DNA of 64,000 bases from an uncultured Lentisphaerota bacterium (GTDB lineage Bacteria > Verrucomicrobiota > Lentisphaeria > Victivallales > UBA1829): the NCBI GenBank assembly GCA_900320095.1, contig ONQZ01000020.1, positions 1 to 64,000 of the forward strand, read 5' to 3'. A program made the position numbers and the translations under genes. This document shows positions 118-13,445 of this stretch, one piece after another (the stretch's first letter is position 1; the number at the start of each line of letters is the position of its first letter). Below the pieces are notes generated by a model, which was not told the origin of the DNA, did not search any database, and worked only from the letters and a program-made list of their open reading frames with translations.

Positions 118-349
118 CAGGATGGTGGGATTTAATAAAATAGGGACTATCTGGCTTTAAACAAATTCCCCCTTTCTACCTAAAGGTGCGGATACTTGCC
201 GTTGAATAAATCCGTATAGACCGGATCGACTATCCAAAGAAATTAAGGGGTAAAGAATCGTATTGCGCCATTGACTTTTTAACCGGAGAAGTTATATTAT
301 CCGAAGCATTAAATCCAAACACCGTATAACCTGACGGAGCATGTTCCCC

Positions 350-3214
350 ATGTCTGAAGATTCCCACGAATTGAAAGTCGGTCAATTGATCCAGCATCCC
401 GAATTTGGCGAAGGCGTTATGGCGTCTTCTCCCGTGAATGGCACTGTTTCCGTCCTTTTCAAAAAAGGTGGGGAGAAACAGGTTGAGGTGTCAGGTCTTT
501 CTTTCGCCCATGACCGACTTGACGATCTTTTTTCTTCAATTCATCCGGCAACACAGGAAGAGATAGACCGCTTGGATTTGGCAGTCGAAGCAGAATCCAT
601 CCCTCTGATGGAGAACAAGACGGAACTGACTTCCGCAAAAATCGACCTGCTGCCACACCAAGTCGTTCTGGTTCACAAAGTTGCCAATGCAAATCCCAGG
701 CGCTTCCTTATCGCGGATGAGGTCGGGTTGGGCAAGACGATTGAAACAGCTCTGGTCTTGCGCGAATTGGCATCTCGCGGAGAACTGAAACGGGCGCTTA
801 TCATTGTTCCGGCTTCACTTGTGGAAAATTGGCGTCGAGAACTGAATGATGTGTTCCATCTGGATTTTTCTGTTTTTGGTAAGGAAGACAATGGTCAACC
901 ATCAAAAGAAAATCCGTTTAAGACCTATGATCGTTTGATTGGATCAATTGATACTCTGAAACGAGAAAAAAGAGTAAAAATGCTCTTGGACAGTCCCATG
1001 TGGGACATGATTGTTTTCGATGAAGCGCATCACTTGACAGCGCGAAAGAACGGCCAAAATCCCATCATAACGCAAAACTATATTTTGGCTGATACAATAC
1101 GAAATCATTGCAGAGATATGCTGTTGCTTTCAGCGACACCGCATCAGGGCGACAACGAACGTTTTTTGGAGTTGATAAAGATACTCAATCCGAATCTGTT
1201 TGAAAATGTTGAGGACATGAAGAATAACCGCTACCGCCTAAATACGGTTGTAATCAGAAGAACCAAAGCAGATGCCTGTACTGTAGACGGAAGTCCATTA
1301 TTTGCCCGTCGTCAGGTTTATTCAAAGGAATTCTATTTGTCAAAAGACGAGTATTCGTATTATAACGAGTTGTTGGATTATTTGGAAAGAGGATATGATC
1401 GCGACAAACGAAAAAAAGGGAAGAAGATAGGTTTTGTTATGTGTGTATTCCAGAAAATAGCATCAAGCAGTTTTTGCGCATTAGGAAACGCAATGAAGAA
1501 CCACCTCATTAAGCTGCGTGTATCAACATTTGACAAGTATTTGGAAGTAATTGATGATAAAAACAATGATGATTCCGAAGACCACCATGAAGTATGGTAT
1601 AACAACTCAATGCTGCCTCTTGAAGATGTGATTGATTCCATAAAAGAGGAAACGATTCAAGTTATCAAAGAAGTAAACCATCTGCCTGACGGAACCATAG
1701 GCGACGCATTGGCAGAACAAGAGTTTTACAAAATCAGTAGAAAATTAAAAAGAGAAGCGGAATATGAGCCAGGATTTGAAGGCACCGAGGATGAAAATAG
1801 TTCCGATTCCTTTGATAACGAAAAGAACGAGAACGACGATTATGATGAAGATGATTATGAAGAAGATGAGGAAGACGAAGAGGAAGAGGAAAGTAAATTT
1901 GAAGACGAGGAAAGCGCTCTTCAGGATTTGATAGATTGTCTTCCGGATTCTGCCGAAAGCAAGATATCTGTTTTGGAGCAGGCTTTATGCATGATTTGGA
2001 AAGAGTCTCCGAAGGAGCAAATAATCATCTTTGCAACATATCTGGGAACCGTAAATCTTATCGCAAATATGTTGAAAAATGTTTTTCCTGATAAAGGTGT
2101 TGTGATTCTGAAAGGCGGAGATCATGAAGCGAAAAACAACGCTCAGAATCAATTCAAACGCCAGAATGGGCCACAGGTGTTGGTGTGTACAGCAGCTGGT
2201 CGAGAAGGAATCAATCTTCAATCTGCGAAGATTCTTTTCAATTACGATTTGCCATGGAATCCGATGGAACTGGAACAGAGAATTGGAAGAATTCATCGAT
2301 ACGGTCAAACGCAAACAGCTCAAGTGTATAATCTTGTTGCCATCAATACATTGGAAGGAAAGATATTTCAACGGTTGCGGGATAAGATACAGAAAATCGC
2401 TGAAACTTTAGGGAAAGTTGATGAAAACGGACAAGTTGCAGAAGACTTCGAAGTGCAGATACTTGGATTTCTACAAGAAAGATTGAACTATGAAAAGCTC
2501 TACAAGAAAGCGTTGAAAGACCGGACATTAAAACGTACCGATCAAGAACTGGAAGTAGCATTGAAAAATGCCATGGATTCAAGAAAAGTTGTTCAAAATC
2601 TGTTCCAGGATCTTGATGGATTTAATCTTGATGATTATCAAAAATGTGCAGACAATGGCAAAAACAGAAATCGTCTCTTATCTTTTGTCGAAAAACAGGC
2701 GAGATATTCTGATTATCAATATGTAGCCAAAGAAGATGGACTTTCAGAATTAAAGAATTTGAAAACAGAAGAAAGCGTTCTGTTTACTTCTGATCGCAAA
2801 AAAGCATTGGACGACGAATCCTTGCAACTCTTCGGAATTGAGCATCCGATTGTGGAACAAATGCTTCATGATGCAACAAAACTTCCGACAAAGGGTCGTG
2901 CTGTCATTTGTAGTTCTGAAAGGAACGGAATCATCATTGTTTGGAAAGTTGTTCTGTCTTCCTGTGATAAAAGCACTACATACATGATAAGAATGGGATT
3001 ATCGGAATCCGGAGAACGAGATCTCTCTTTGACAAAAAAGATGAGCCTTGTTCCGATAAAAACTGAGGTAAAGAATCCGGTATTCTCTTCATCCCTGGTG
3101 ATCTCTGCTCGCAATGCTTTGATGCATGAACTGGAAGATAAACGACTTCTTACAAATGGAATGTCATACACTGCAGATCCGATTGCTTTATATGTTTTGC
3201 AAGAAAAGAAATGA
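350..3214 (+). CDS. SNF2/RapA-like superfamily 2 helicase (orphan)
   Basis: A 954-residue SNF2-family DNA translocase. Visible motifs are a Q-motif-like LLPHQ near residue 101, Walker A ADEVGLGKT near 122-130, Walker B DEAH near 224-227, SATPHQGD near 261, and helicase C motifs GREGINLQ near 617 and QRIGRIHRYGQ near 642. The first 50 residues (HPEFGEG, then VLFKKGG) resemble the Tudor-like tail of UvrD/PcrA. An extreme Asp/Glu run lies at about 480-524 between the two lobes. The start at 350 is preferred over 341 because GGAG at 336-339 is 10 nt from it but only 1 nt from 341. Such proteins occur in DISARM (DrmD) and other defence loci, but no methylase, DrmA/B or nuclease partner is adjacent. 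The gene is clearly AT-richer than the core genes, consistent with transfer. It probably acts on DNA in the element's defence or replication; that role is inferred. Confidence 0.85.
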   Translation: MSEDSHELKVGQLIQHPEFGEGVMASSPVNGTVSVLFKKGGEKQVEVSGLSFAHDRLDDLFSSIHPATQEEIDRLDLAVEAESIPLMENKTELTSAKIDLLPHQVVLVHKVANANPRRFLIADEVGLGKTIETALVLRELASRGELKRALIIVPASLVENWRRELNDVFHLDFSVFGKEDNGQPSKENPFKTYDRLIGSIDTLKREKRVKMLLDSPMWDMIVFDEAHHLTARKNGQNPIITQNYILADTIRNHCRDMLLLSATPHQGDNERFLELIKILNPNLFENVEDMKNNRYRLNTVVIRRTKADACTVDGSPLFARRQVYSKEFYLSKDEYSYYNELLDYLERGYDRDKRKKGKKIGFVMCVFQKIASSSFCALGNAMKNHLIKLRVSTFDKYLEVIDDKNNDDSEDHHEVWYNNSMLPLEDVIDSIKEETIQVIKEVNHLPDGTIGDALAEQEFYKISRKLKREAEYEPGFEGTEDENSSDSFDNEKNENDDYDEDDYEEDEEDEEEEESKFEDEESALQDLIDCLPDSAESKISVLEQALCMIWKESPKEQIIIFATYLGTVNLIANMLKNVFPDKGVVILKGGDHEAKNNAQNQFKRQNGPQVLVCTAAGREGINLQSAKILFNYDLPWNPMELEQRIGRIHRYGQTQTAQVYNLVAINTLEGKIFQRLRDKIQKIAETLGKVDENGQVAEDFEVQILGFLQERLNYEKLYKKALKDRTLKRTDQELEVALKNAMDSRKVVQNLFQDLDGFNLDDYQKCADNGKNRNRLLSFVEKQARYSDYQYVAKEDGLSELKNLKTEESVLFTSDRKKALDDESLQLFGIEHPIVEQMLHDATKLPTKGRAVICSSERNGIIIVWKVVLSSCDKSTTYMIRMGLSESGERDLSLTKKMSLVPIKTEVKNPVFSSSLVISARNALMHELEDKRLLTNGMSYTADPIALYVLQEKK

Positions 3215-3953: not shown

Positions 3954-4613
3954 TCAACATGTCAAAAATGCTTTAGAAATAGGATGTGAATACCATTGTG
4001 TTCCAGTACCAATATTGAGATAGGGAAATGAATTTTGCAAGTACATCGTTATATCTTCTTCTCCAAGAGGTGTAATATCTACCTTTGAGTAAAAGAATGT
4101 TTTTCCTGTAACATTCTCTTTCTGTTCTTTTTTTGCTATATAGCTGATTTGACATAGAACTTCGCATAAATCATGGTAAGTTGTTAGAAAGCGATCCAGT
4201 AAGATACCATTTCTATGTCCTTCATTGCATTCATTGATACAACCATAATCACCACAGATGTTTCTTAGGACTGTTCTGGCATTTTCAAAATGCTGATAGG
4301 TATTGTTTGTCTTGTTCCCATCAAGAAAGAGTACCATGTGATAATGTATCTTCTTCTCTGAACTGAATTCTCTTACGGAAATGTAAAGAGGATCATATCC
4401 AGCATTTTTCTCTTTTTCAATGAAACGATGATTGAAGTCCATAATGTAAAATTGACTCAAGTGTTGAGGAAGATGTATATCCATTCTCATAACGAATACC
4501 TTACAATGTCTATACATTGACATAAGCAGGAGATTGTAATAGACGTTTTGTATTCTTTCATCCATTTCGCATCCGAGGAATACTCTTCCATTTGAATTGT
4601 TCGATTGAAACAT
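3954..4613 (-). CDS. Inovirus Gp2 / YagK-YfjJ-like replication protein
   Basis: A 219-residue protein with the layout of the inovirus-type Gp2 / YagK-YfjJ C-terminal family: an early RMDIHLP strand near residue 44, a basic/aromatic middle, then KIHYHMVLFLDGNK near residue 88. The H-x-H pair in HYHMVLF matches the metal-binding motif of HUH-like rolling-circle initiators. A later aromatic segment (FFYSKVD) is also family-like. The start is placed at ATG 4613 because GAAAGGA lies 6 nt upstream; an upstream TTG at 4628 would overlap that site. Its expected role is initiation of element replication or transfer by nicking DNA. It is transcribed divergently from the small gene at 4874, sharing a 260-bp AT-rich spacer that could hold promoters and the nick site. 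Confidence 0.65.
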   Translation of the reverse strand: MFQSNNSNGRVFLGCEMDERIQNVYYNLLLMSMYRHCKVFVMRMDIHLPQHLSQFYIMDFNHRFIEKEKNAGYDPLYISVREFSSEKKIHYHMVLFLDGNKTNNTYQHFENARTVLRNICGDYGCINECNEGHRNGILLDRFLTTYHDLCEVLCQISYIAKKEQKENVTGKTFFYSKVDITPLGEEDITMYLQNSFPYLNIGTGTQWYSHPISKAFLTC

Positions 4614-4873
4614 AATCTGTCCTTTCAATTAAAAGGTTGTATATTTTTTGTTGTGAGTAAAACGAATTTTACAAGTTGCTTATATAAGTAATATATATTA
4701 TCCGAGTTTTAATTGACATGAAAACTCACCATAATCCATGTGTCTTTTAAGAATCATGAACGAGATTAAATGCATATAATGTATCGCGACATAATTTTCA
4801 TCTTTCTACATTCTCTTGTCATATTTCAATGTTTCTTTTCAGACATATTATAACAACGAACAAAGGAGGTTAT
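4614..4873. promoter_or_regulatory. Divergent AT-rich control region of the two Rep-like genes
   Basis: This 260-bp spacer is very AT-rich and separates two outward-facing genes. It contains TATATAAGTAATATATATTA near 4681-4700 and a TATAAT at 4775-4780, plausible as a -10 element for the rightward gene. No clear -35 element can be paired with it. A nick site or origin for the HUH-like protein could lie here but is not identifiable by eye. Confidence 0.35.
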
Positions 4874-5341
4874 ATGACAAATGAAACCGCACAATTAGAA
4901 AGAATCGGAAATCTGTTAGAAAAGTATTTATTCAGTTTTGGAAAAGCAAGAGCAGGGTTCTATGTATTTCCATCCTTGGAGAATTACTATGATTTCACCA
5001 AGTATATGAATTCTTTAACCTCAACATTGAAAAGATCAAACTGCCGTCCGCTGTATTCCTGGTTTTATGATGGCACTCGCGGATGTTACAACATGATTCT
5101 GATTGTTCAGGGGTACTTCCGAAACGATATGAACGATGTCACAGATGCCGTCCAACGCATTTGGAAGCATTACAGTCCATATCCGATACAGTTTATTGCA
5201 GAGATTCCCATTGATTATTCCACAATTGACCAGGACAAAATGAGGCTTTGGGAGATCATGAACAGAATGCAGTTTACCGCTTCGATGTCGCAGAAAGTTT
5301 TACCAGCTCACCAGCGGGCTTTTGCCTGTTCAAGACTGTAA
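4874..5341 (+). CDS. Small protein, possible degenerate paralogue of the Gp2-like Rep
   Basis: A 155-residue protein with an excellent ribosome site (AAAGGAGG ending 5 nt before ATG 4874), so the longer frame from 4829 is not used. It has no certain family. The segment GCYNMILIVQGYFRND near residue 75 lines up by pattern with HYHMVLFLDGNKTNN of the divergent neighbour, but the two histidines are replaced by Cys and Asn. The C-terminus AHQRAFACSRL resembles the RSFG-type ending of YfjJ proteins. I read it as a possible catalytically dead Gp2-like paralogue, perhaps a regulator or partner of the active protein. The similarity is weak, and a hypothetical protein remains the safe call. Confidence 0.55.
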   Translation: MTNETAQLERIGNLLEKYLFSFGKARAGFYVFPSLENYYDFTKYMNSLTSTLKRSNCRPLYSWFYDGTRGCYNMILIVQGYFRNDMNDVTDAVQRIWKHYSPYPIQFIAEIPIDYSTIDQDKMRLWEIMNRMQFTASMSQKVLPAHQRAFACSRL

Positions 5342-5534: not shown

Positions 5535-7061
5535 ATGCAAATTCCCGTAAACAAAAACTCGTTGGCCAGTGCTTTGACCGCACTGGGGAAGCTGGTCTCC
5601 CGGACGTCTTTGATCAAGGCGTATCAGGGGATCGAAATCGAAGGCAAAGCGAACATGCTTTACTTCAGAACCCGCAACGTGATCGAACAGATCGAATTCC
5701 GGCTGTTTGCCGACCTGGAAGATGATTTCCCGGCAATCCTCGTGGAGTTCGAGCAGTTCCGTCAGATGGTCCGCAGCTGCAAGAACAAGACGCTGAAGCT
5801 GGAAATCGACTGCGGTGAAGTCTTCATCGACGATGTGAAACTTGCACCCATCAAGGGGCATTTCCCGTTGAAAGAACAGATTCCGGATCAGGACATCACT
5901 GTCACGGAATTGCCTGCTGATACGTTGTCGGCGTTGTCGTTGCTTGCCCCGATCACGGACAAGGGAACGGACGTCCGCAAGGTTCTCGGAGGAATCAACA
6001 TCAGCGAAGACGGGTTCACCGCAACAAACGGTAAAGAGCTATCGAACATCCCGCTCAAGCTCGAAACGACCGGGAGCGTTACGATCCCGTTCCCTCTCGC
6101 TCTGCTTGCCACGAAAACCTTTGGTGATTCCGGACGCCTCTCGACCTGGCAGAAGGATGAAGACACGCATTTCGAGCTGACGCTTGGTGCGTGGACCTGG
6201 CAAGCCAAAGCGCTCAAAGGAAACTATCCGAACTGGAAGCGTGTCGTCCCGGAACGAACTGAAGCGACGCACTATGTGAGTTTCCAGGAAGACCGTGCTG
6301 AACGGCTTCAGCGTTACCTGAAGAGCATCCCGGACGATAAGGAGCACAATAACGCTGTCAAGCTCAGCCGTCTTCCCGAAGTCCCGGACAATCTTCACCT
6401 CGAAAGCTCGAACGGAATGCTGTTCAGCATCCTCGCTGAATTTGACCCGAACTGGAACGACCTGAGTTTCTGCGTCAGAAAGGAATTTCTCCTGCGTCTG
6501 CTGGATGCTGGACACCGGAAGATCGAACTCAACGATGCTTTTGGCCCAATTGTCGGCACTGGTGGTTCTGGCCAGTACATCGCCATGCCCATTATCACTA
6601 AAAAGCCGCAAGCTCAAAATGAACAAAACTCGGAACAGACCGCTTCTGCTCAAGCGGACGTAAAACCCGAAGTTCAGACCGAGCAGAACGAAACTCAGTC
6701 CAGCACAGAAAACTCGAAATCCGTCACCGAACAGATTCCCCCTCAACCACAAGAAAACAAAATCACCGTCACCAATACCAACCTCAATAAGGAGAACTCC
6801 ACGATGAACGAACCCACCACCATCCGTACCGTGTCTGCCATGCAGACTTTCACCCCGAACAATGAACCTGCCAATCCGCTCGACGAGCTGACCTCGAAAA
6901 TCGAAGGCATGAAAAACGCCCTGAAGGACATGATCGAAGAAGTCACAGCCATGAGCAGAAAAATCCGGGAGGTTTCCATCGCCCAGCGACAGAAGGACCG
7001 CGAATACAATCAGACCAAACGCGCTCTTGATCGTGTCCGCGTGGCAACCGGAGCCGCCTGA
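5535..7061 (+). CDS. DnaN-like sliding clamp fold protein with C-terminal coiled coil
   Basis: A 508-residue protein. The first 355 or so residues have the pattern of a DNA polymerase III beta clamp: an opening like MQIPVNKNSLASALTALGKL followed by repeated beta-strand/helix units, including DGFTATNGKELSNIPL in the position of the usual TDG-hRLS motif and a closing strand near GSGQYIAMPII, where beta clamps have their terminal MP(M/I) motif. A Gln/Glu/Ser-rich linker (about 356-425) leads to a charged coiled coil (about 440-500). ATG 5535 follows GGAGGAAAA. Housekeeping clamps are about 370 residues and lack the tail, so this is an element-encoded variant. It heads a same-strand cassette with DNA-binding-like small proteins, a nuclease and a DUF932 protein, suggesting it loads or organises element DNA replication or repair. 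The family call is from pattern, not alignment. Confidence 0.65.
   Translation: MQIPVNKNSLASALTALGKLVSRTSLIKAYQGIEIEGKANMLYFRTRNVIEQIEFRLFADLEDDFPAILVEFEQFRQMVRSCKNKTLKLEIDCGEVFIDDVKLAPIKGHFPLKEQIPDQDITVTELPADTLSALSLLAPITDKGTDVRKVLGGINISEDGFTATNGKELSNIPLKLETTGSVTIPFPLALLATKTFGDSGRLSTWQKDEDTHFELTLGAWTWQAKALKGNYPNWKRVVPERTEATHYVSFQEDRAERLQRYLKSIPDDKEHNNAVKLSRLPEVPDNLHLESSNGMLFSILAEFDPNWNDLSFCVRKEFLLRLLDAGHRKIELNDAFGPIVGTGGSGQYIAMPIITKKPQAQNEQNSEQTASAQADVKPEVQTEQNETQSSTENSKSVTEQIPPQPQENKITVTNTNLNKENSTMNEPTTIRTVSAMQTFTPNNEPANPLDELTSKIEGMKNALKDMIEEVTAMSRKIREVSIAQRQKDREYNQTKRALDRVRVATGAA
6804..7061 (+). CDS. Possible internally initiated coiled-coil protein
   Basis: Inside the clamp-like gene, in the same frame, AAGGAG ends about 9 nt before an ATG at 6804, a textbook Shine-Dalgarno spacing. 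Translation from here would give 85 residues (MNEPTTIRTVSAM and onward) consisting almost entirely of the coiled coil, cleanly detached after the low-complexity linker. It may represent an in-frame fusion of a formerly separate gene or a programmed short form. The ribosome site is seen directly; use of the start is inferred. Confidence 0.4.
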   Translation: MNEPTTIRTVSAMQTFTPNNEPANPLDELTSKIEGMKNALKDMIEEVTAMSRKIREVSIAQRQKDREYNQTKRALDRVRVATGAA

Positions 7062-7190
7062 TTCATCCCGGACATTCCCCCTGGGCAGAGAAAATGAGCT
7101 TGAAAAAAGCAGCGGAGAATAAATTCGCCGATACTGCGGTCATTATATACATGAATAATAATCAGCAACTATTAACTAAAGGAGGCTATT

Positions 7191-7658
7191 ATGTCTACAT
7201 CTGCTGAAATTACTTATTCTATTCAAAACGACCGTCCCTCTATCACGTTCCGCGTCTCTGCTCAGGGGGAAGGGAATTCCGCACCCGATCTCCGTGGTAT
7301 GCTTTCACAAATTCAGGAAGCGGTCACGGAGTTTCAGAAAAAGCCACCGACAAAACTTTTGTCGAATACGGAAGTTGTTGTTCAGGACGCACCTCGTCCT
7401 ATGCAATCTACAAACAAAAAGCAATTCTCAGGCAACAAAGCGAAATCTCTACAGCAGAAATCCGCTTCTCCTCAAAACGAGGAGATAGATCATGATTTAC
7501 CTGGGAGCATTTCGAGTGGTCAGATCGGAAAAATCCATGTAGATCTTCGATCCCGAAATATACCGGTAAAAGATTTTTGTTTCAAACAGGGTATTGCCCG
7601 CATTGAGGACCTTGCTTTTAATCGCGCTTGGACTATCATCAATCATGAAGAGTATTGA
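7191..7658 (+). CDS. Small cassette protein, paralogue 1 (strand-rich N-terminus, shared helical C-terminus)
   Basis: A 155-residue protein with a strong site AAAGGAGG before ATG 7191. The N-terminus (EITYSIQNDRPSITFRVSA) looks like a beta hairpin followed by a helix; a polar Gln/Lys/Ser linker spans about 60-105; and the last 50 residues (SGQIGKIHVDLRSRNIPVKD, then GIARIEDL and a final helix) match by pattern the ends of the next two genes. This C-terminal module, with a Q near its start and a G-(V/I)-x-x-(I/L)-E-x-L core, occurs at the ends of many phage and plasmid recombination or single-strand-binding proteins. Function is unknown; a nucleic-acid-binding accessory role fits its place between a clamp and a nuclease. 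It is AT-richer than the clamp gene. Confidence 0.7.
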   Translation: MSTSAEITYSIQNDRPSITFRVSAQGEGNSAPDLRGMLSQIQEAVTEFQKKPPTKLLSNTEVVVQDAPRPMQSTNKKQFSGNKAKSLQQKSASPQNEEIDHDLPGSISSGQIGKIHVDLRSRNIPVKDFCFKQGIARIEDLAFNRAWTIINHEEY

Positions 7659-7692
7659 CAACTCCTGAAACTTAATATAAAGGTATCTGTTT

Positions 7693-8064
7693 ATGCAAGT
7701 AGAAATCTCAATCTCAATCCCTCCGGATCGTTCCGTGACTAAGTTCAAGATGGACTCCCGAAAGGTCTTAGCGCTGCTTGACATTATCGAATGTGTCGTG
7801 GATAAGCGGAAAGACCTCATTCAGCAACGTCTTGATGAACTGGAAAAAGAATTATCCTCGGAATCGGATCCTTTTTCACGACTGGGAAATGTGATCTCCG
7901 CCAGGCAAGCTTCCGATTTCAGGAAGATCCTGCACAAGAATGCTCTATCCGAACAGGCCGTCTGTACAAAATACGGAGTCGATTGTATCGAAGAGCTGAC
8001 TGGGAGCGATGTTCTGGATGTCCTTACCGGGATCGTCCTGTCGAACCAAGACCAAAAGCAATAA
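7693..8064 (+). CDS. Small cassette protein, paralogue 2
   Basis: A 123-residue protein. ATG 7693 follows AAAGG with a somewhat long spacer. The N-terminal strands VEISISIPPDRSVTKFKM and a long charged helix (DKRKDLIQQRLDELEKELSS) precede the shared C-terminal module: SARQASDFRKILHKNALSEQ, then KYGVDCIEELTGSDV. The linker is much shorter than in its two neighbours. The protein lies 34 bp after paralogue 1 and 101 bp before paralogue 3, all on the same strand. It is probably a diverged copy from tandem duplication. No enzymatic motif is visible; a DNA-binding or clamp-partner role is inferred from context only. Confidence 0.65.
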   Translation: MQVEISISIPPDRSVTKFKMDSRKVLALLDIIECVVDKRKDLIQQRLDELEKELSSESDPFSRLGNVISARQASDFRKILHKNALSEQAVCTKYGVDCIEELTGSDVLDVLTGIVLSNQDQKQ

Positions 8065-8101
8065 CTCACAACCAAAACCTTCAAACCAATACAGTATGCA
8101 A

Positions 8102-8133
8102 GCATCCTCGGCAGCCTACGCTGCCGAGGATGC
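8102..8133 (+). terminator. Perfect 14-bp intergenic hairpin
   Basis: Positions 8102-8115 and 8120-8133 are perfectly complementary (14 bp, GC-rich) around a CTAC loop, followed by ACTTTTACC. It sits between paralogues 2 and 3. It may be an intrinsic terminator with a poor U-tract, or an RNA processing/stability element that sets different expression of the downstream genes. Confidence 0.65.
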
Positions 8134-8165
8134 ACTTTTACCAACAAAAACGAAAGGACTACATT

Positions 8166-8630
8166 ATGCTCAAACTCAACGCATCCTATTCCAAAAAGGT
8201 CCCGGCTGACTCTCAATACAGCAGCCAGTCTTTCCACGCCTCGGTCGAGGTGGAACTCCCCGATGGTCTCACGCAGGACCAGCTTAACGCGAAAATCCAC
8301 GAGACCTTCGATCTCGTCCGCGCGTCTGTCGAAGCGGAACTCCATGAAAGTGCGCCTCAGCAGACGGTGCAGAACAATCTGACATCTCAGCCGGGGCTGT
8401 ACGACGCCACACCTCAGAACGCCTCGAAACCCACCTACAACAAGAAGAACGGAACGACCTCGGATGCTCCTGCAAGTCCGAAACAGATCAAGTATCTCCT
8501 CGACCTCGCAAAGCAGTACGGCGTCTCCCCGGACCAGATCAAAAACAAGTTCAACGTTCCCTCCCTCGAAAGCCTCTCCAAAACACAGTGCAGCCGTGCA
8601 ATCGACGAGCTCAGCGGAAAGGCAGCGTGA
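8166..8630 (+). CDS. Small cassette protein, paralogue 3
   Basis: A 154-residue protein starting at ATG 8166, preceded by GAAAGGA; the longer open frame from 7983 overlaps the previous gene and the hairpin and is rejected. The N-terminus (LKLNASYSKKVPAD, then SFHASVEVELPDGLTQDQL) is strand-rich with a following helix (ETFDLVRASVEAEL). A polar linker covers about 65-100. The C-terminal module SPKQIKYLLDLAKQYGVSPD, then FNVPSLESLSKTQ is the clearest example of the shared domain in the three tandem genes. It stops 4 bp before the nuclease gene, implying translational coupling. The family is not named here; a single-strand-binding or recombination accessory protein is the best guess. Confidence 0.72.
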   Translation: MLKLNASYSKKVPADSQYSSQSFHASVEVELPDGLTQDQLNAKIHETFDLVRASVEAELHESAPQQTVQNNLTSQPGLYDATPQNASKPTYNKKNGTTSDAPASPKQIKYLLDLAKQYGVSPDQIKNKFNVPSLESLSKTQCSRAIDELSGKAA

Positions 8631-8634
8631 ACTC

Positions 8635-9426
8635 ATGGAACGTGAAATCGAAACCATGCGCGAATCTCCACACTGGTCGTACAGCGCATTGCAGACATAC
8701 CTCACGTGCCCGATGCGCTATTACTTCCGGTACATCGAACACGCCGAGGTAGAGCGTACGCCCATCAGCATCCCGTTCGGTCGAGCCATCCATCTTGTGC
8801 TCAGTGAACGTGCCATGAAGGGAACGAACTACACCATCGTGGACGCGAAGGAAGATTTCGCCGTGTACTTCAAGGGCGAAACCGAGGTCTGCGAGAACCT
8901 GACCTACAAGCCCGACGAGGATTACTGGTTCTGGGACAAACGAGGTTGCGACATGCTCGACGTTGCCCTTGCCGACTGGCCTGACGACTACACCGTCAAA
9001 TCGGTGGCAGAAGCGTTCAGCGTAAACGTGCCCGGTCTCTCGAAACCGCTGGTCGGTGAATTCGACCTCGTTACCGTGGATGGGGGAGACGAAACCATCT
9101 GCGACTGGAAAACGGCATCAACGAACTGGCCGAAGGGAAAAGCCGACCGTGATCTTCAGGCGACAACGTTCGCCTATGCCTACATGAAGAAGTACGGCGT
9201 GAATCCTGTTTTCAGGTTCGATGTTTTTACGAAAGCGAAGACGCCTGCTCATCACCAGTTCTACACGCTCAGAACGAGCGACGATTTCGACCGCTTCGTT
9301 TACCTCGCAGGACAGATCGAGAAAGCCGTCAACAATGGCCTCTTCATCCCGATCGAATCCTGTATGAACTGCGCTGAATGCGCTTACAGCAGCCGCTGCA
9401 AAGCGGTGCATCGAAAGGTTGCGTGA
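8635..9426 (+). CDS. Cas4/RecB-like PD-(D/E)XK nuclease
   Basis: A 263-residue protein of the PD-(D/E)XK nuclease superfamily. It opens with SYSALQTYLTCPMRYYFRY (the SxLxxYxxCPxrfxY signature of RecB/AddB/Cas4 nucleases). The active-site pattern is GEFDLVTVDGGDETICDWKT near residue 145, with D, D and K in the expected spacing, followed by the QATTFAYAY helix (the Q-x-x-x-Y motif). Four cysteines, one in the N-terminal CPMR and three in the C-terminal CMNCAECAYSSRC, match the iron-sulphur arrangement of Cas4/AddB. ATG 8635 is 4 bp after the preceding stop. It is expected to trim DNA ends, producing 3' or 5' overhangs for recombination. There is no CRISPR array nearby, so a role in recombination or replication of the element is more likely. 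Confidence 0.85.
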   Translation: MEREIETMRESPHWSYSALQTYLTCPMRYYFRYIEHAEVERTPISIPFGRAIHLVLSERAMKGTNYTIVDAKEDFAVYFKGETEVCENLTYKPDEDYWFWDKRGCDMLDVALADWPDDYTVKSVAEAFSVNVPGLSKPLVGEFDLVTVDGGDETICDWKTASTNWPKGKADRDLQATTFAYAYMKKYGVNPVFRFDVFTKAKTPAHHQFYTLRTSDDFDRFVYLAGQIEKAVNNGLFIPIESCMNCAECAYSSRCKAVHRKVA

Positions 9427-9429
9427 CCT

Positions 9430-10155
9430 ATGCTGATTATGGAAGAAGGAAAGTACGTGAGCAGGGAGGAGATCGCACGCATCGACACTCCCAGCTCAAC
9501 TGCCTCATGGAAGCCCGTTCCGCACATCGACGTGATCGAGGCTGTGGCCGAGGTTGTCAACGCCCACAAATGGAACATCGAGGACGAAAGATTCGGCCTT
9601 GCCAGCGAGGGGAAGAAGATGTTCGGCGTGATGGAAATCTCCCGTTCATCTTCACCTCAGTGGCATCGCTGTATTGGAATCCGCAACAGCCACGACAAAT
9701 CTCTCGCTGTCGGGCTGTCTGCCGGAATCGTCGTTCTCGTCTGCTCCAACCTCGCTTTCGGTGGAACCACCGTCATCAAGCGCAAGCACACCAGTCGGTT
9801 TGAACTGACCGATCTGATCGACCGTGCTGTCGCTTCGCTGGAGGACGACTTCCTGATGACCGAAACCGTGTGCGAGGACCTGAAGGACATTCAACTCAAG
9901 AACGATGATGAAGCCCGGAGCAGTATCGTCAGAGCAGCCGAGCTCGGCGTCATCAATTCCTGCGACATTCTTCCGGTCTATCGCGAGTTCAAGGAACCCT
10001 CGCATGTCGAGTTCAAAGAGCCGACACGCTGGAGTCTCCTGAACGCGTTTACGGAAATCGTGAAGAAATATTCTCCGCAGCGCGTGGATCACAGCTATCT
10101 CGCCCTCAACCGAGCTTTCGGTCTGGACGGACGTCAAGCGGCAATCTTCGCCTGA
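9430..10155 (+). CDS. DUF932 (phage/plasmid-like TIGR03299-type) protein
   Basis: A 241-residue protein resembling the DUF932 family common in phages and plasmids. Typical features are an early HIDVIEAVAEVVNAHKW helix, an SLAVGLSAGIVVLVCSNLAF core (the family's characteristic N-x-D/S ... G-hhhxCxNGhxF-like block), a following RKHTSR basic patch and a C-terminal helical region including AFTEIVKKYS. It starts 3 bp after the nuclease stop. Some DUF932 proteins are linked to restriction-evasion or recombination functions in mobile elements, but the molecular role is unknown. Its position at the end of the clamp/nuclease cassette suggests a common operon. Confidence 0.75.
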   Translation: MLIMEEGKYVSREEIARIDTPSSTASWKPVPHIDVIEAVAEVVNAHKWNIEDERFGLASEGKKMFGVMEISRSSSPQWHRCIGIRNSHDKSLAVGLSAGIVVLVCSNLAFGGTTVIKRKHTSRFELTDLIDRAVASLEDDFLMTETVCEDLKDIQLKNDDEARSSIVRAAELGVINSCDILPVYREFKEPSHVEFKEPTRWSLLNAFTEIVKKYSPQRVDHSYLALNRAFGLDGRQAAIFA

Positions 10156-10189: not shown

Positions 10190-10220
10190 CCGAGGTGGAG
10201 GCAATACGCTTTCACCTCGG
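10190..10220 (+). terminator. Stem-loop after the DUF932 gene
   Basis: CCGAGGTG at 10190-10197 pairs with CACCTCGG at 10213-10220, followed by GTATTTCATTT. It is a plausible weak terminator separating the cassette from the small membrane peptides. Confidence 0.45.
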
Positions 10221-10606: not shown

Positions 10607-10864
10607 ATGAAAACAGCAAACCACCCCGCAAATGAAGAAGATCGGCTTCATAAAACAGAGCCGTCATCTTGGTTCTCTCGAAAGGAAGCTGCACAGTACG
10701 CACATGTGTCTACTGACACAATCGACCGTTGGGTTTCCATTGGTTACATCAAAAGAATCAAGCTCAATCGCGCAAAAAATGGGCGTGTTCTCATTGACCG
10801 TAAAAGCATTGATGCGTTTTATCGGCAATGCGGCTGCACACCTCCAGCATTAAGCACGACCTAA
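10607..10864 (+). CDS. Excisionase-like HTH_17 DNA-binding protein
   Basis: An 85-residue protein with the helix-turn-helix pattern of the MerR-like excisionase (HTH_17) family: SRKEAAQYAHVSTDTIDRWV (about residues 24-43), then IKRIKLNRAKNGRVLIDRKSI where the family has a wing and the R-I-x-x-x-D/S-(L/I) end. ATG 10607 follows AGGAAG. It is the last supported gene before the presumed attachment site at 11.5 kb, where excisionases typically sit. It probably controls directionality of excision or element gene expression. No integrase lies inside the window, so the cognate recombinase would be to the left. Confidence 0.8.
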   Translation: MKTANHPANEEDRLHKTEPSSWFSRKEAAQYAHVSTDTIDRWVSIGYIKRIKLNRAKNGRVLIDRKSIDAFYRQCGCTPPALSTT

Positions 10865-10920: not shown

Positions 10921-11502
10921 CTTTTTCGGGGAGTATGGATATATTATGATATTACGTCTGTTCAATCTGAGGTTGCTTCTAGAGGAAATCTTTTGCCGAG
11001 ACCGGATGCGGGGGGTACATGTTTGTCTCTTCGGTATTCAAAAATTGGCGCTCAAGCTCAAAAACTATCGTTATTGGCGCCAATTATTCACGTAAAACGA
11101 CAAAAAAGATACAGAGAACGCCAATTTTACGCCGGGATAGCGCCAACTTTTCCAGCCTTTCCGCCAACACCGAAGAGCATATAAAAAATGGCGGTGAGCT
11201 TAGACTTTGAACATGGACGGTCAAATTGACGAGAAACGTCTTTGCCGTTGCTGTAAGGTAGAATCGTCCTCTGACTATGCCGATATTTCGCGAGCAATCA
11301 TTAACTTGCTGATTGACCGAATAAGGGAGAAAAACCCCCGCCTCACGGATCATGTCAAGATTTGTGACCGAATCACCTCGCCAGGGCTTTTTTTAGGTAG
11401 GTATCCGACAATAAATGGAAGTAATCATTAAAAATCGTGGTCCTGTTCAAAATGGCACAAAAAGATAAAGGGTGTTCTGAGGAGATATAGGAAATAGCTT
11501 GC
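10921..11502. other. Non-coding end of the integrated element
   Basis: About 580 bp with no convincing gene lie between the terminator and the tRNA scar. A short Cys-rich frame near 11213-11431 lacks a clear ribosome site. The region contains a cluster of GCGCCAA-type motifs (listed separately), consistent with arm-type recombinase sites or an origin near an attachment site. Confidence 0.5.
11045..11167. repeat. Cluster of five GCGCCAA/TTGGCGC motifs
   Basis: Within 123 bp the heptamer-like motif appears as TTGGCGC (11045), the palindrome TTGGCGCCAA (11074-11083), CGCCAA (11119), GCGCCAA (11140) and CGCCAA (11162). The arrangement in both orientations resembles arm-type sites for an integrase/excisionase, or iterons. 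Confidence 0.5.
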
Positions 11503-11547
11503 CTACGGATCAGAAGGTTGGGGGTTCAAATCCCTCCGGGTGCACCA
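11503..11547 (+). tRNA. 3' half of a tRNA-Arg(ACG) gene (attachment-site scar)
   Basis: The sequence starts at the anticodon loop (CTACGGA, anticodon ACG). It continues with the 3' anticodon stem TCAGA, the variable loop, a complete T-arm (GGGGG-TTCAAAT-CCCTC type) and acceptor strand ending in the encoded CCA. The 5' half of the tRNA is absent: upstream bases do not form the D-arm or the anticodon stem. Site-specific elements commonly integrate in the anticodon loop or 3' end of tRNA genes and leave such a duplicated 3' fragment. I interpret this as the right attachment site of the element filling the first 11.5 kb. Confidence 0.8.
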
Positions 11548-11562
11548 CTTAGAATTGACTGG

Positions 11563-11599
11563 ACCACAAGAGTTTACAAAGCTCCTGTGGTTCTTTTTT
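11563..11599 (+). terminator. Terminator just after the tRNA fragment
   Basis: ACCACAAGAG and CTCCTGTGGT form an imperfect hairpin followed by TTCTTTTTTG. It would have terminated the original tRNA-Arg transcript and supports the chromosomal side starting here. Confidence 0.7.
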
Positions 11600-11687
11600 G
11601 CCTCTTCGACGGTTTCTGACAAAAAGTCATAGCGCTTTCTCTGGCCTCTTCGACGGTTTCTGACAAAAAGTCATAGCGCTTTCTCTG
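11600..11687. repeat. 44-bp perfect tandem duplication
   Basis: Two identical 44-bp units (11600-11643 and 11644-11687), each beginning GCCTCTTCGACGG and ending TTTCTCTG, lie head to tail. They include the 3' end of the transposase remnant and its stop region. Confidence 0.9.
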
Positions 11688-11844
11688 GGTTGATTTCCGG
11701 GAGCTGGTAGATTTTGAGTTTAAGGTATTCCCTGTCACGGAAGCCGTATGCCTGACGGATGAGCCAGCGGATTTTGTTGTTGAAGCCTTCCGTATTCGCG
11801 TTGCTGATATGTCCGAACGTCCAGTAGTGGAATTCGCCTATTCT
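11671..11844 (-). pseudogene. C-terminal remnant of an ISL3-family transposase
   Basis: On the minus strand about 57 residues remain: RIGEFHYWTFGHISNANTEG, then FNNKIRWLIRQAYGFRD, ending in PEKAL. The N-T/V-E-G-x-N-N-K-I-(R/K)-x-(L/I)-x-R-x-A-Y-G-(F/Y)-R pattern is the conserved end of ISL3-type DDE transposases. The frame upstream changes abruptly into the terminator of the xylulokinase gene, so the N-terminal 85% or more of the transposase is missing. It is a dead fragment next to the attachment scar. Confidence 0.8.
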
Positions 11845-11848
11845 GTTC

Positions 11849-11888
11849 GAAAAACAAACACACCGTCTCTCCCGGAGGAAAGACGGTG
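11849..11888 (-). terminator. Terminator of the xylulokinase gene
   Basis: On the minus strand CACCGTCT pairs with AGACGGTG around a short loop, followed by a T-rich run (TGTTTGTTTTT). It lies 27 bp beyond the stop of the kinase gene. Confidence 0.85.
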
Positions 11889-11915
11889 CGGATCGTTTGC
11901 GGAAACGGAGACGGA

Positions 11916-13445
11916 TCAGCCGCGGCTGGATTCGAGCGCGGCGTAGTCCGCCATCATGCCGTCGTAGAGGCCGCGCAGGGAGGCGTCGGGCTCGATGACG
12001 GATGCGGAGGCGCAGAACATCGCGTAGAGGTCCTCGAACGGCGTGTTTTCGATGCCGTTGGCGGCGCGGATGGCGGCACCAAGGGACGCGGAGTTCGCGA
12101 TGGAGACCGTCTCGATCTTCGCCTGGAAGACGTCGGCGAGGATCTGGCGGAACGTGGCGCTCTTGGACGCGCCGCCGGTCACGCGGATGCGCTTGAAAGA
12201 GCCGTCGCCCTGCCACGCAGAATGGCGGCGCATGGTGAGTGCCTGGGATTCGAGCAGGCAGCGGATCTGTTCCGCCTTGGAAGCGGTGGCGGGGTCGAAG
12301 TTGCGGACGACGCCGGCGGGGACCGCGGGCGTGTTTTCGGCTTCGTAGTAGGGGAGCATCAGCTTGCCACCGTTGCCGGGCTTGGTCTCGGCGCACGCCG
12401 TGACGTCGAAGAAGTGCCAGTCCACGCCGAGCTCGTCGCGGAGGTGTTCGCGGGCGAAGGAACCGTTCGTGAAGCAGATGAGGCTCATGAAGCCGCCCGC
12501 CGGATTGCCGAACACGTGGCCGCATCCGTCCGGGTCGGTCACGAAGTTCTGCATCGTGGCGAAGAAGGTGTCGCTGGTGCCGAGGCTGATGACCGCAGTG
12601 CCGAAGGAGCCGCCGCCGACGCCGATCAGGCTGCACGGATTGTCACCGGACCAGACCACGACCGGGATGCCCGCGGTCAGGCCGTACTTCGTGAAGTAGG
12701 CGGTGAGCTTGCCCGCGACGGTGTTCGAGGGCTTCACGGGCGGGAGCTTGTTCATGAGGTCGGGGGCGGTGGCCGCCGTGATCTCGGGATCCCATTCGAG
12801 CTTGTGGAGGTTCAGCAGGTTCATGCCCGCGCCGTCGCCGTAGTCGATCGGGGTGTCCTTGCCGCAGAGCACGGAGCAGAGGAACGAGCTCACGAGGTGC
12901 ACGGTTTTCGTCTTCGCCCAGGCTTCCGGCTCGGTCGAGGCGAACTTGCGGATCTGCGGACCGGTGAAACGCACGATCGCCGGGCTGCCGGTATCTCTGC
13001 GGAGGCGTTCACCGAACTGTTCTGTCAGCCACGCGCACTCCTTGTCGGTGGACTTGTCCATCCAGATCGGGGCAACCGCGCGGGAAAGGATCGGCGTGAG
13101 CTGGTCGGCGAGGGTCTTCGCGGGATCCCAGTCGGTAATCGGGGCGCTCAGATAGACGGATCCGTGCTGCTGGCCGGAACCGGAGATGCCGGCGATCTTC
13201 TCCATCGGGAAATCCGCCTTTTTCATGTGGTCGAACAGCATGTCCATGGCGGCGACCCACATGCGCGGATCGGCGCAGCGGACGTTTTCGTCGTCGTTGG
13301 GGAGGTATCCGCTCGGCGATTTGTATTCCGGCAGATCGTTCTTGAAGTTGACCGCGAAGGAGCCGACGACTTTGCCGGCGGCGGTGTCGATGACCTCGGC
13401 TTTGAGGCCCTGTGTGCTGGAGTCAAGACCCAGATAGTAACTCAT
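11916..13445 (-). CDS. xylB: Xylulokinase (FGGY carbohydrate kinase)
   Basis: A 509-residue FGGY-family sugar kinase, most like xylulokinase, which phosphorylates D-xylulose with ATP in the cytosol. It begins MSYYLGLDSSTQGLKAEV (phosphate-1 motif). It then has GISGSGQQHGSVYL near residue 90, the substrate-loop region WMDKSTDKEC near 135, GDNPCSLIGVG near 265, SLGTSDTFF near 290, and the adenosine-motif VTGGASKSATFRQILADVF near 430. These fit XylB better than GlpK or GntK. The start at 13445 has AGGA 9 nt upstream; the 27-residue extension is not used. It is monocistronic with its own terminator, 37 kb away from the xylose-isomerase-like gene. The CTTGAAA inverted repeat upstream may be an operator. 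Confidence 0.88.
   Translation of the reverse strand: MSYYLGLDSSTQGLKAEVIDTAAGKVVGSFAVNFKNDLPEYKSPSGYLPNDDENVRCADPRMWVAAMDMLFDHMKKADFPMEKIAGISGSGQQHGSVYLSAPITDWDPAKTLADQLTPILSRAVAPIWMDKSTDKECAWLTEQFGERLRRDTGSPAIVRFTGPQIRKFASTEPEAWAKTKTVHLVSSFLCSVLCGKDTPIDYGDGAGMNLLNLHKLEWDPEITAATAPDLMNKLPPVKPSNTVAGKLTAYFTKYGLTAGIPVVVWSGDNPCSLIGVGGGSFGTAVISLGTSDTFFATMQNFVTDPDGCGHVFGNPAGGFMSLICFTNGSFAREHLRDELGVDWHFFDVTACAETKPGNGGKLMLPYYEAENTPAVPAGVVRNFDPATASKAEQIRCLLESQALTMRRHSAWQGDGSFKRIRVTGGASKSATFRQILADVFQAKIETVSIANSASLGAAIRAANGIENTPFEDLYAMFCASASVIEPDASLRGLYDGMMADYAALESSRG

Follow-up and report, generated by a model that had tools for sequence, protein, structure and literature searches.

Exonuclease-annealing modules such as lambda Red, RecET and those combining a Cas4-like nuclease with ERF place a PD-(D/E)XK end-processing nuclease beside small DNA-associated proteins, and sliding clamps have mostly been treated as housekeeping components. 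A cassette that resembles these modules in its nuclease and small proteins, and that is led by a sliding clamp gene, lies at positions 5535-10155 of the 64,000-nucleotide stretch analyzed here (the window), which comes from an uncultured Lentisphaerota bacterium of the order Victivallales (contig ONQZ01000020.1, positions 1 to 64,000). Its six genes, all on the forward strand, encode an element-borne beta sliding clamp of 508 residues (5535-7061), three small proteins designated smA (7191-7658), smB (7693-8064) and smC (8166-8630), a nuclease of the Cas4/RecB type (8635-9426) and a DUF932 protein (9430-10155). The original prediction, made from the window alone, had outlined these six same-strand genes, and all of them are present with the gaps it gave, of 34 bp between smA and smB, 4 bp between smC and the nuclease gene and 3 bp between the nuclease and DUF932 genes. 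We give slightly better than even credence to the view that this cassette is a DNA recombination or repair module of tRNA-integrating genomic islands in the Victivallales and other Verrucomicrobiota, operating through the mechanism proposed below.

We searched 137 genomes of the order for the clamp and analyzed the surroundings of 44 copies, which come from about 30 genomes; 41 of these loci have sequence downstream of the clamp gene and provide the counts of gene order. The arrangement is not unique to the window, with smC present downstream of the clamp in 40/41 loci, the nuclease gene in 39/41 and the DUF932 gene in 39/41, and with junctions among these three genes that mostly overlap or span 0-4 bp. 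No smC follows the clamp in four loci (L060, L072, L073 and L079), three of which end or break near the clamp, while in L060 the clamp seemingly stands alone. The presence of smA (7/44 loci) and smB (4/44) is restricted to close relatives. The conserved core of the cassette is the clamp, smC, nuclease and DUF932 genes, smC being the only small gene in it, and the earlier grouping of all three small genes in the cassette does not extend to this core. The pairwise divergences of the four core proteins are strongly correlated (Mantel r 0.81-0.89, 0/999 permutations).

Among 388 genomes drawn from the phylum, smC was identified in 53 and a DUF932 gene of the cassette kind in 59. Elsewhere in the class, one locus (L118) keeps the full cassette and another (L119) keeps its members in a different order. 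In distant families of the phylum, smC and the nuclease gene are found with the clamp and without DUF932 in L113-L115, and with neither clamp nor DUF932 found in L110-L112. The genes after smC in two other loci, L116 and L117, are of the MoxR-like and VWA types. The smC-MoxR-VWA module constitutes a second smC architecture, without clamp or DUF932, and one genome (G023, a single contig) holds five dispersed copies of it (L100-L109), interrupted by group II intron reverse transcriptase-like genes.

The sampled carriers all belong to one phylum and islands spread as blocks, so that unrelated island genes might have been kept together simply by chance or recent ancestry. We regard this explanation as barely credible, given that the gene order is kept at 20-50% clamp identity, in different families and, with L118, elsewhere in the class, and that the coupled junctions and parallel divergence contradict it. 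The cassette genes are carried together and diverge in step, within islands whose defense cargo varies. Up to about ten cassette copies were identified per genome, and clamp copies within one genome can be as little as 46-51% identical, which points to repeated acquisition of the cassette by single genomes.

The assignment of the 508-residue protein to the beta clamps draws on several profile comparisons. A single-sequence Pfam search gives a weak match (E=0.006), and the protein matches phrog_947 of the PHROGs collection (E=1.7e-17) and TIGR00663 (E=8e-16, 57.9 bits, below the chromosomal-clamp equivalog cut-off of 137.65). A profile built on 40 relatives matches the E. coli beta structure (E=3e-17) and the solved DnaN structure 4trt (E=2e-24), the latter over profile positions 1-346, which encompass the whole three-domain ring and bear out the DnaN fold that had been proposed. 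When the cassette clamps were aligned to DnaN of E. coli and to six DnaN proteins encoded on chromosomes of the same order, it was found that the partner-binding pocket residues (L155, T172, G174, L177, P242, V247, M362 and P363) are retained in most of 41 cassette clamps, and that pocket position R176 is replaced by E or Q in 41/41. A separate chromosomal DnaN, of 365 residues and 32% identity to E. coli, is encoded in the same genome; the cassette clamp is therefore a second clamp. These comparisons identify the cassette protein as a bona fide beta clamp, distinct from the host DnaN. Past the ring (about residues 1-355), a variable linker leads to a conserved C-terminal helix with the strong heptad (3.5-residue) periodicity typical of coiled coils.

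The linker and tail of the clamp gene present a feature described in other systems. In Rpn and Cas11d an internal in-frame start gives rise to the C-terminal part as a product of its own, and the small internal-start product of Rpn binds the full-length protein (PMC10327210). In the window, the clamp linker contains a Shine-Dalgarno sequence, AAGGAG (6789-6794), followed nine bases on by an in-frame ATG at 6804 that would yield, in the clamp frame, an 85-residue protein corresponding to the coiled-coil tail (6804-7061). We examined 47 clamp genes (34 non-redundant) for a linker methionine preceded by a ribosome-binding match of at least 5 bases at a spacing of 4-12 bases. Such a start was found in 46/47 clamp genes (33/34 non-redundant). 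Resampling of synonymous codons, with the peptide kept, led to an expectation of 23.6/47 with a maximum of 35 in 1000 resamplings, and to 17.7/34 with a maximum of 25 in 2000 for the non-redundant set. Among 22 held-out clamp genes, which were not used to form the idea and some of which are close relatives of the first set, the site was present in 17, against 9.8 expected and a maximum of 15 in 500 resamplings. In-frame ATGs of the ring part showed a comparable ribosome-binding site in just 18/225 and 8/131 cases. Furthermore, one locus (L154, from genome G053) encodes the tail as a free gene (5836-6099 of that locus) that starts at the matching methionine, with AAGGAG before it. This free tail gene is followed by smA, smB, smC and DUF932, then by an integrase gene and tRNA-Met, with no ring and no nuclease gene.

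The peptide alone accounts for about half of the signal, as the resampling expectation shows, and the site might start no protein, the K-E-x-x-x-M sequence being conserved for another role, such as protease cleavage or linker function. This explanation is unlikely when set against a count in the full set that exceeds all 1000 resamplings, the excess in the held-out genes, the scarcity of such sites in the ring and the position at which the free tail gene of L154 begins. Because of the 46/47 count, the held-out result and the L154 gene, internal initiation is the simplest reading of the site, and the statistics support two predicted products of the clamp gene: the complete ring protein and the coiled-coil tail by itself. 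No precedent for a separately made C-terminal part of a sliding clamp was found in the literature searched. Decayed clamp genes were observed in four further loci (L156, L157, L161 and L162), in which the ring part is broken or shortened by large in-frame deletions and the tail frame is kept.

The nuclease matches PDDEXK_1 (PF12705) at E=3e-22, and its invariant residues comprise the catalytic D144, D157 and K159 and the cysteines C25, C246, C249 and C255 (C25...C246xxC249x5C255). A C...CxxCx5C pattern is the iron-sulphur arrangement of Cas4, AddB and Dna2. By its motifs the protein is an Fe-S-type PD-(D/E)XK enzyme, for which an iron-sulphur cluster is predicted. Its identification as a CRISPR Cas4 was rejected, as it scores 39.4 bits against TIGR00372, with a cut-off of 65, and no cas genes were recognized near the cassette in the window or among the flanking families that were scanned. 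The DUF932 protein matches PF06067 at 46.5 bits (cut-off 23, E=5e-12), and with this both identities given in the original prediction were recovered. Its predicted structure has a pLDDT of 87.5. The gene of the nearest phage relative of the nuclease is followed after 21 bp by that of an ERF annealing protein, and a DUF932 relative adjoins a RecE-like exonuclease, SSB and ERF in a Salinibacter phage; no relation was detectable between the exonuclease of that phage and the cassette nuclease. RecT was found in 0/16 carrier genomes and ERF in 1/16, away from any cassette. We read the cassette in terms of end resection and strand handling because of these nuclease and DUF932 relatives and of the carriers without RecT.

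The core protein smC comprises a beta-beta-alpha domain, a variable linker and a three-helix C-terminal module. Its alignment contains 30 invariant residues, and the N-terminal beta-beta-alpha region is almost invariant. The smA profile matches the smC profile with 86% probability (E=5e-6, 56 columns), and the weaker match of smB has 40% probability (E=3e-4). The C-terminal module that the three small proteins had been proposed to share thus appears to be real, although its commonality is only partly secure on these profile comparisons. No obvious clamp-binding motif was seen in the small proteins or the nuclease. An invariant glutamine of smC was considered as evidence of clamp binding and dropped, since the same residue is present in smC proteins from clamp-less loci. 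Comparison of smC and the clamp with phage and plasmid records gave no match, profile scans of viral contigs returned no relative, and three Salinibacter phage proteins (gp49, gp50 and gp53) were rejected as smC relatives.

A terminator- or attenuator-like element, a 14-bp perfect hairpin on the forward strand, lies upstream of smC at 8102-8133. A strong hairpin just 5' of smC occurs in 20/40 loci, against 0.2 expected, and the same score is reached in 2/432 coding windows. Likewise, a terminator-like hairpin follows the DUF932 gene (10190-10220, forward strand), and a strong hairpin is found at this place in 21/37 loci. Because of these two hairpins, smC, nuclease and DUF932 probably form their own transcription unit, separated from the clamp by the attenuator-like element. 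A toxin-antitoxin-like pair of small genes is inserted between clamp and smC in several islands (L047, at 11405-11960, L062 and L051).

The cassette had been predicted to belong to a mobile element, and its setting agrees with this. GC content increases from 0.36-0.55 to about 0.64 at the right edge of the island in the window, where positions 11503-11547 (forward strand) match without a difference the 3'-terminal 45 bp of a complete tRNA-Arg(ACG) from a congener. Rfam does not detect this fragment, and no intact tRNA was found in the window; the fragment nonetheless probably marks the island edge and its right attachment site. The contig-covered part of the island, which runs off the contig, contains no integrase, and an excisionase-like HTH_17 protein (10607-10864, forward strand; PF12728, 1.6e-7; phrog_66, 8e-10) is encoded downstream of the cassette. 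Relatives adjoin other tRNAs with tyrosine integrases, an integrase lying beside a tRNA in L003 and L154, and several divergent copies per genome complete the picture of a mobile element. In comparisons between islands, DNA similarity is often lost close to the clamp and persists in the core; cargo is thus exchanged around a stable core.

Replication-type genes, encoding DUF5906/Pox_D5 primase-helicases, AAA_25 ATPases, PIF1 and HUH Rep-like proteins, recur in these islands. A HUH replication-like protein of the YagK/YfjJ family is encoded on the reverse strand at 3957-4628 of the window (PF11726 and PF23343, just below cut-off); it is a recurrent neighbor of the cassette, adjoining the clamp in the window and nearest relatives, and one relative passes PF11726 at 1e-11. 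Together with the intact clamp pocket, these genes would fit a replication module, in which the clamp acts as processivity factor copying the excised island with the HUH Rep, a Pox_D5-type primase-helicase or RepA-like ATPase and the host Pol III, with the nuclease and small proteins processing the ends of the replicated DNA. However, no DNA polymerase or clamp loader was recognized near the cassettes, the replication genes vary among islands (HUH in 16/44 loci) while the four-gene core is constant, and the relatives of the nuclease and DUF932 proteins sit in phage exonuclease-annealing clusters. We consider a replication module doubtful, if a serious possibility.

Upstream of the clamp, a small gene encodes a 155-residue protein (4874-5341, forward strand) without a Pfam match, which is kept in the nearest relatives and lies on the opposite strand in some others. 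Two small membrane-protein-like genes (families c6 and c7) also lie ahead of the clamp, no more than approximately 1 kb away, in 11-12 loci among L044-L079, and a similar gene is present in two distant relatives (L113 and L115).

Defense genes identified in the islands include Avs2 (3e-197), type I and III restriction genes and, in the window, a BrxH/DrmD-like helicase. The Avs2-type gene (L041, 3235-7530; E=3e-197) lies directly upstream of the HUH gene of a cassette and adjoins a type III restriction gene. The window helicase, an SNF2 protein encoded on the forward strand at 341-3214, is probable defense cargo and matches HmaA (8e-96), BrxH (3e-86) and DrmD (1e-83) in PADLOC. Its assignment as DISARM DrmD was rejected, as NF038317 matches at E=4e-98 but with 329.9 bits against a cut-off of 610; it is a solo gene, with no DISARM partners in the sequence examined. 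Such cargo, together with the conserved clamp pocket, would also be compatible with a role in host take-over or counter-defense, in which the extra clamp would serve as a decoy for host clamp partners and competing DNA would be the target of the nuclease. We consider this role unlikely: PADLOC shows no match to the clamp and nothing beyond weak Cas4 matches for the nuclease, which bears the RecB-type motifs expected of end resection, and the defense genes vary from island to island while the core is constant.

The recombination and repair reading of the cassette would involve the following steps. The host clamp loader would place the ring of the element at primer ends or forks on island DNA, where the retained pocket may hold a host polymerase or another partner. 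Clamp tails joined by free coiled coils could act as a scaffold, so that smC and the nuclease accumulate at the ring. Resection of DNA ends by the nuclease would follow, and smC and DUF932 may bind the single strand and help strands pair. In this way, excised island DNA would be rescued and recombined, and the cargo beside the module exchanged. The loading, scaffold, resection and annealing steps are inferred. The cassette had been described as self-contained, a qualification that we withdraw: no polymerase, clamp loader or recognized annealing protein was seen in it, and it must therefore borrow host functions.

Several observations weigh against a recombination and repair module. No known single-strand annealing protein was recognized in the cassette, and profile comparison shows no relation of DUF932 to ERF-type annealing proteins (RecT and Rad52 profiles were not directly compared). 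Foldseek searches of the DUF932 model against the PDB returned no match at E<=0.001, and the neighbors of DUF932 genes in 39 viral loci are mixed, with no RecT or ERF in the tallies shown and no recombination signature. For smC, no match to solved structures was obtained, and its low-confidence model (pLDDT 69, pTM 0.32) gives chance-level matches only. In distant relatives, MoxR and VWA genes take the place of the clamp and DUF932, and L154 lacks ring and nuclease, yet keeps the tail, smA, smB, smC and DUF932. Because L154 has lost both, some islands may be able to do without ring and nuclease. We put forward more tentatively, as possible though well short of probable, that the cassette is an undescribed mobile recombination machine, in which the ring, through mixed assemblies of the coiled-coil arms supplied by the clamp and by its internal gene, would become a hub that brings an exonuclease of the iron-sulphur type, together with smC and DUF932 as unclassified single-strand-handling proteins, to DNA ends.

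These results outline a clamp that mobile islands of gut bacteria have captured, provided with a predicted coiled-coil arm and linked to a nuclease; the module lies beside Avs, restriction and BrxH/DrmD-type defense genes. If the module does drive recombination, it is a candidate route for the exchange of cargo among defense-carrying islands. The internal start, in turn, lets one ask whether a separately made copy of the tail can regulate a clamp; smC and DUF932 are candidate new strand-handling proteins.

The claim that no named system has the order of the cassette is upheld by the family libraries and literature searched, and known systems share individual features with it. E. coli CP4-57-like islands (yfjJ, yfjQ) combine a YfjJ-type gene with a DUF932 gene, as cassette islands do, and are not known to link them to a clamp, smC or nuclease. 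Unlike phage exonuclease-annealing modules, the cassette has no recognized RecT or ERF, is led by a clamp and carries smC and DUF932 at the place of the annealing protein; it also resides in islands at tRNAs, and neither smC nor the clamp was detected in the viral contigs scanned. The nuclease shares the PD-(D/E)XK core and the four-cysteine pattern with solo Cas4, AddB and Dna2 enzymes, but it falls below the Cas4 equivalog cut-off and no adjacent cas1 or cas2 was recognized. The putative gene within the clamp gene resembles those of Rpn and Cas10d/Cas11d, in which the C-terminal part is likewise produced from an internal start in the same frame, and differs from them in that the small product is a predicted coiled coil. 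Finally, the cassette clamp has the three-domain ring and conserved partner pocket of bacterial DnaN and phage-encoded clamps, and is set apart from both by a coiled-coil tail of approximately 85 residues after a variable linker, by the internal start, by E or Q in place of R at pocket position 176 in the copies sampled from the order and by its fixed linkage to smC, nuclease and DUF932. Each enzyme of the cassette belongs to a known superfamily; the dedicated clamp and the putative gene within the clamp gene appear, as far as we have found, to be new.

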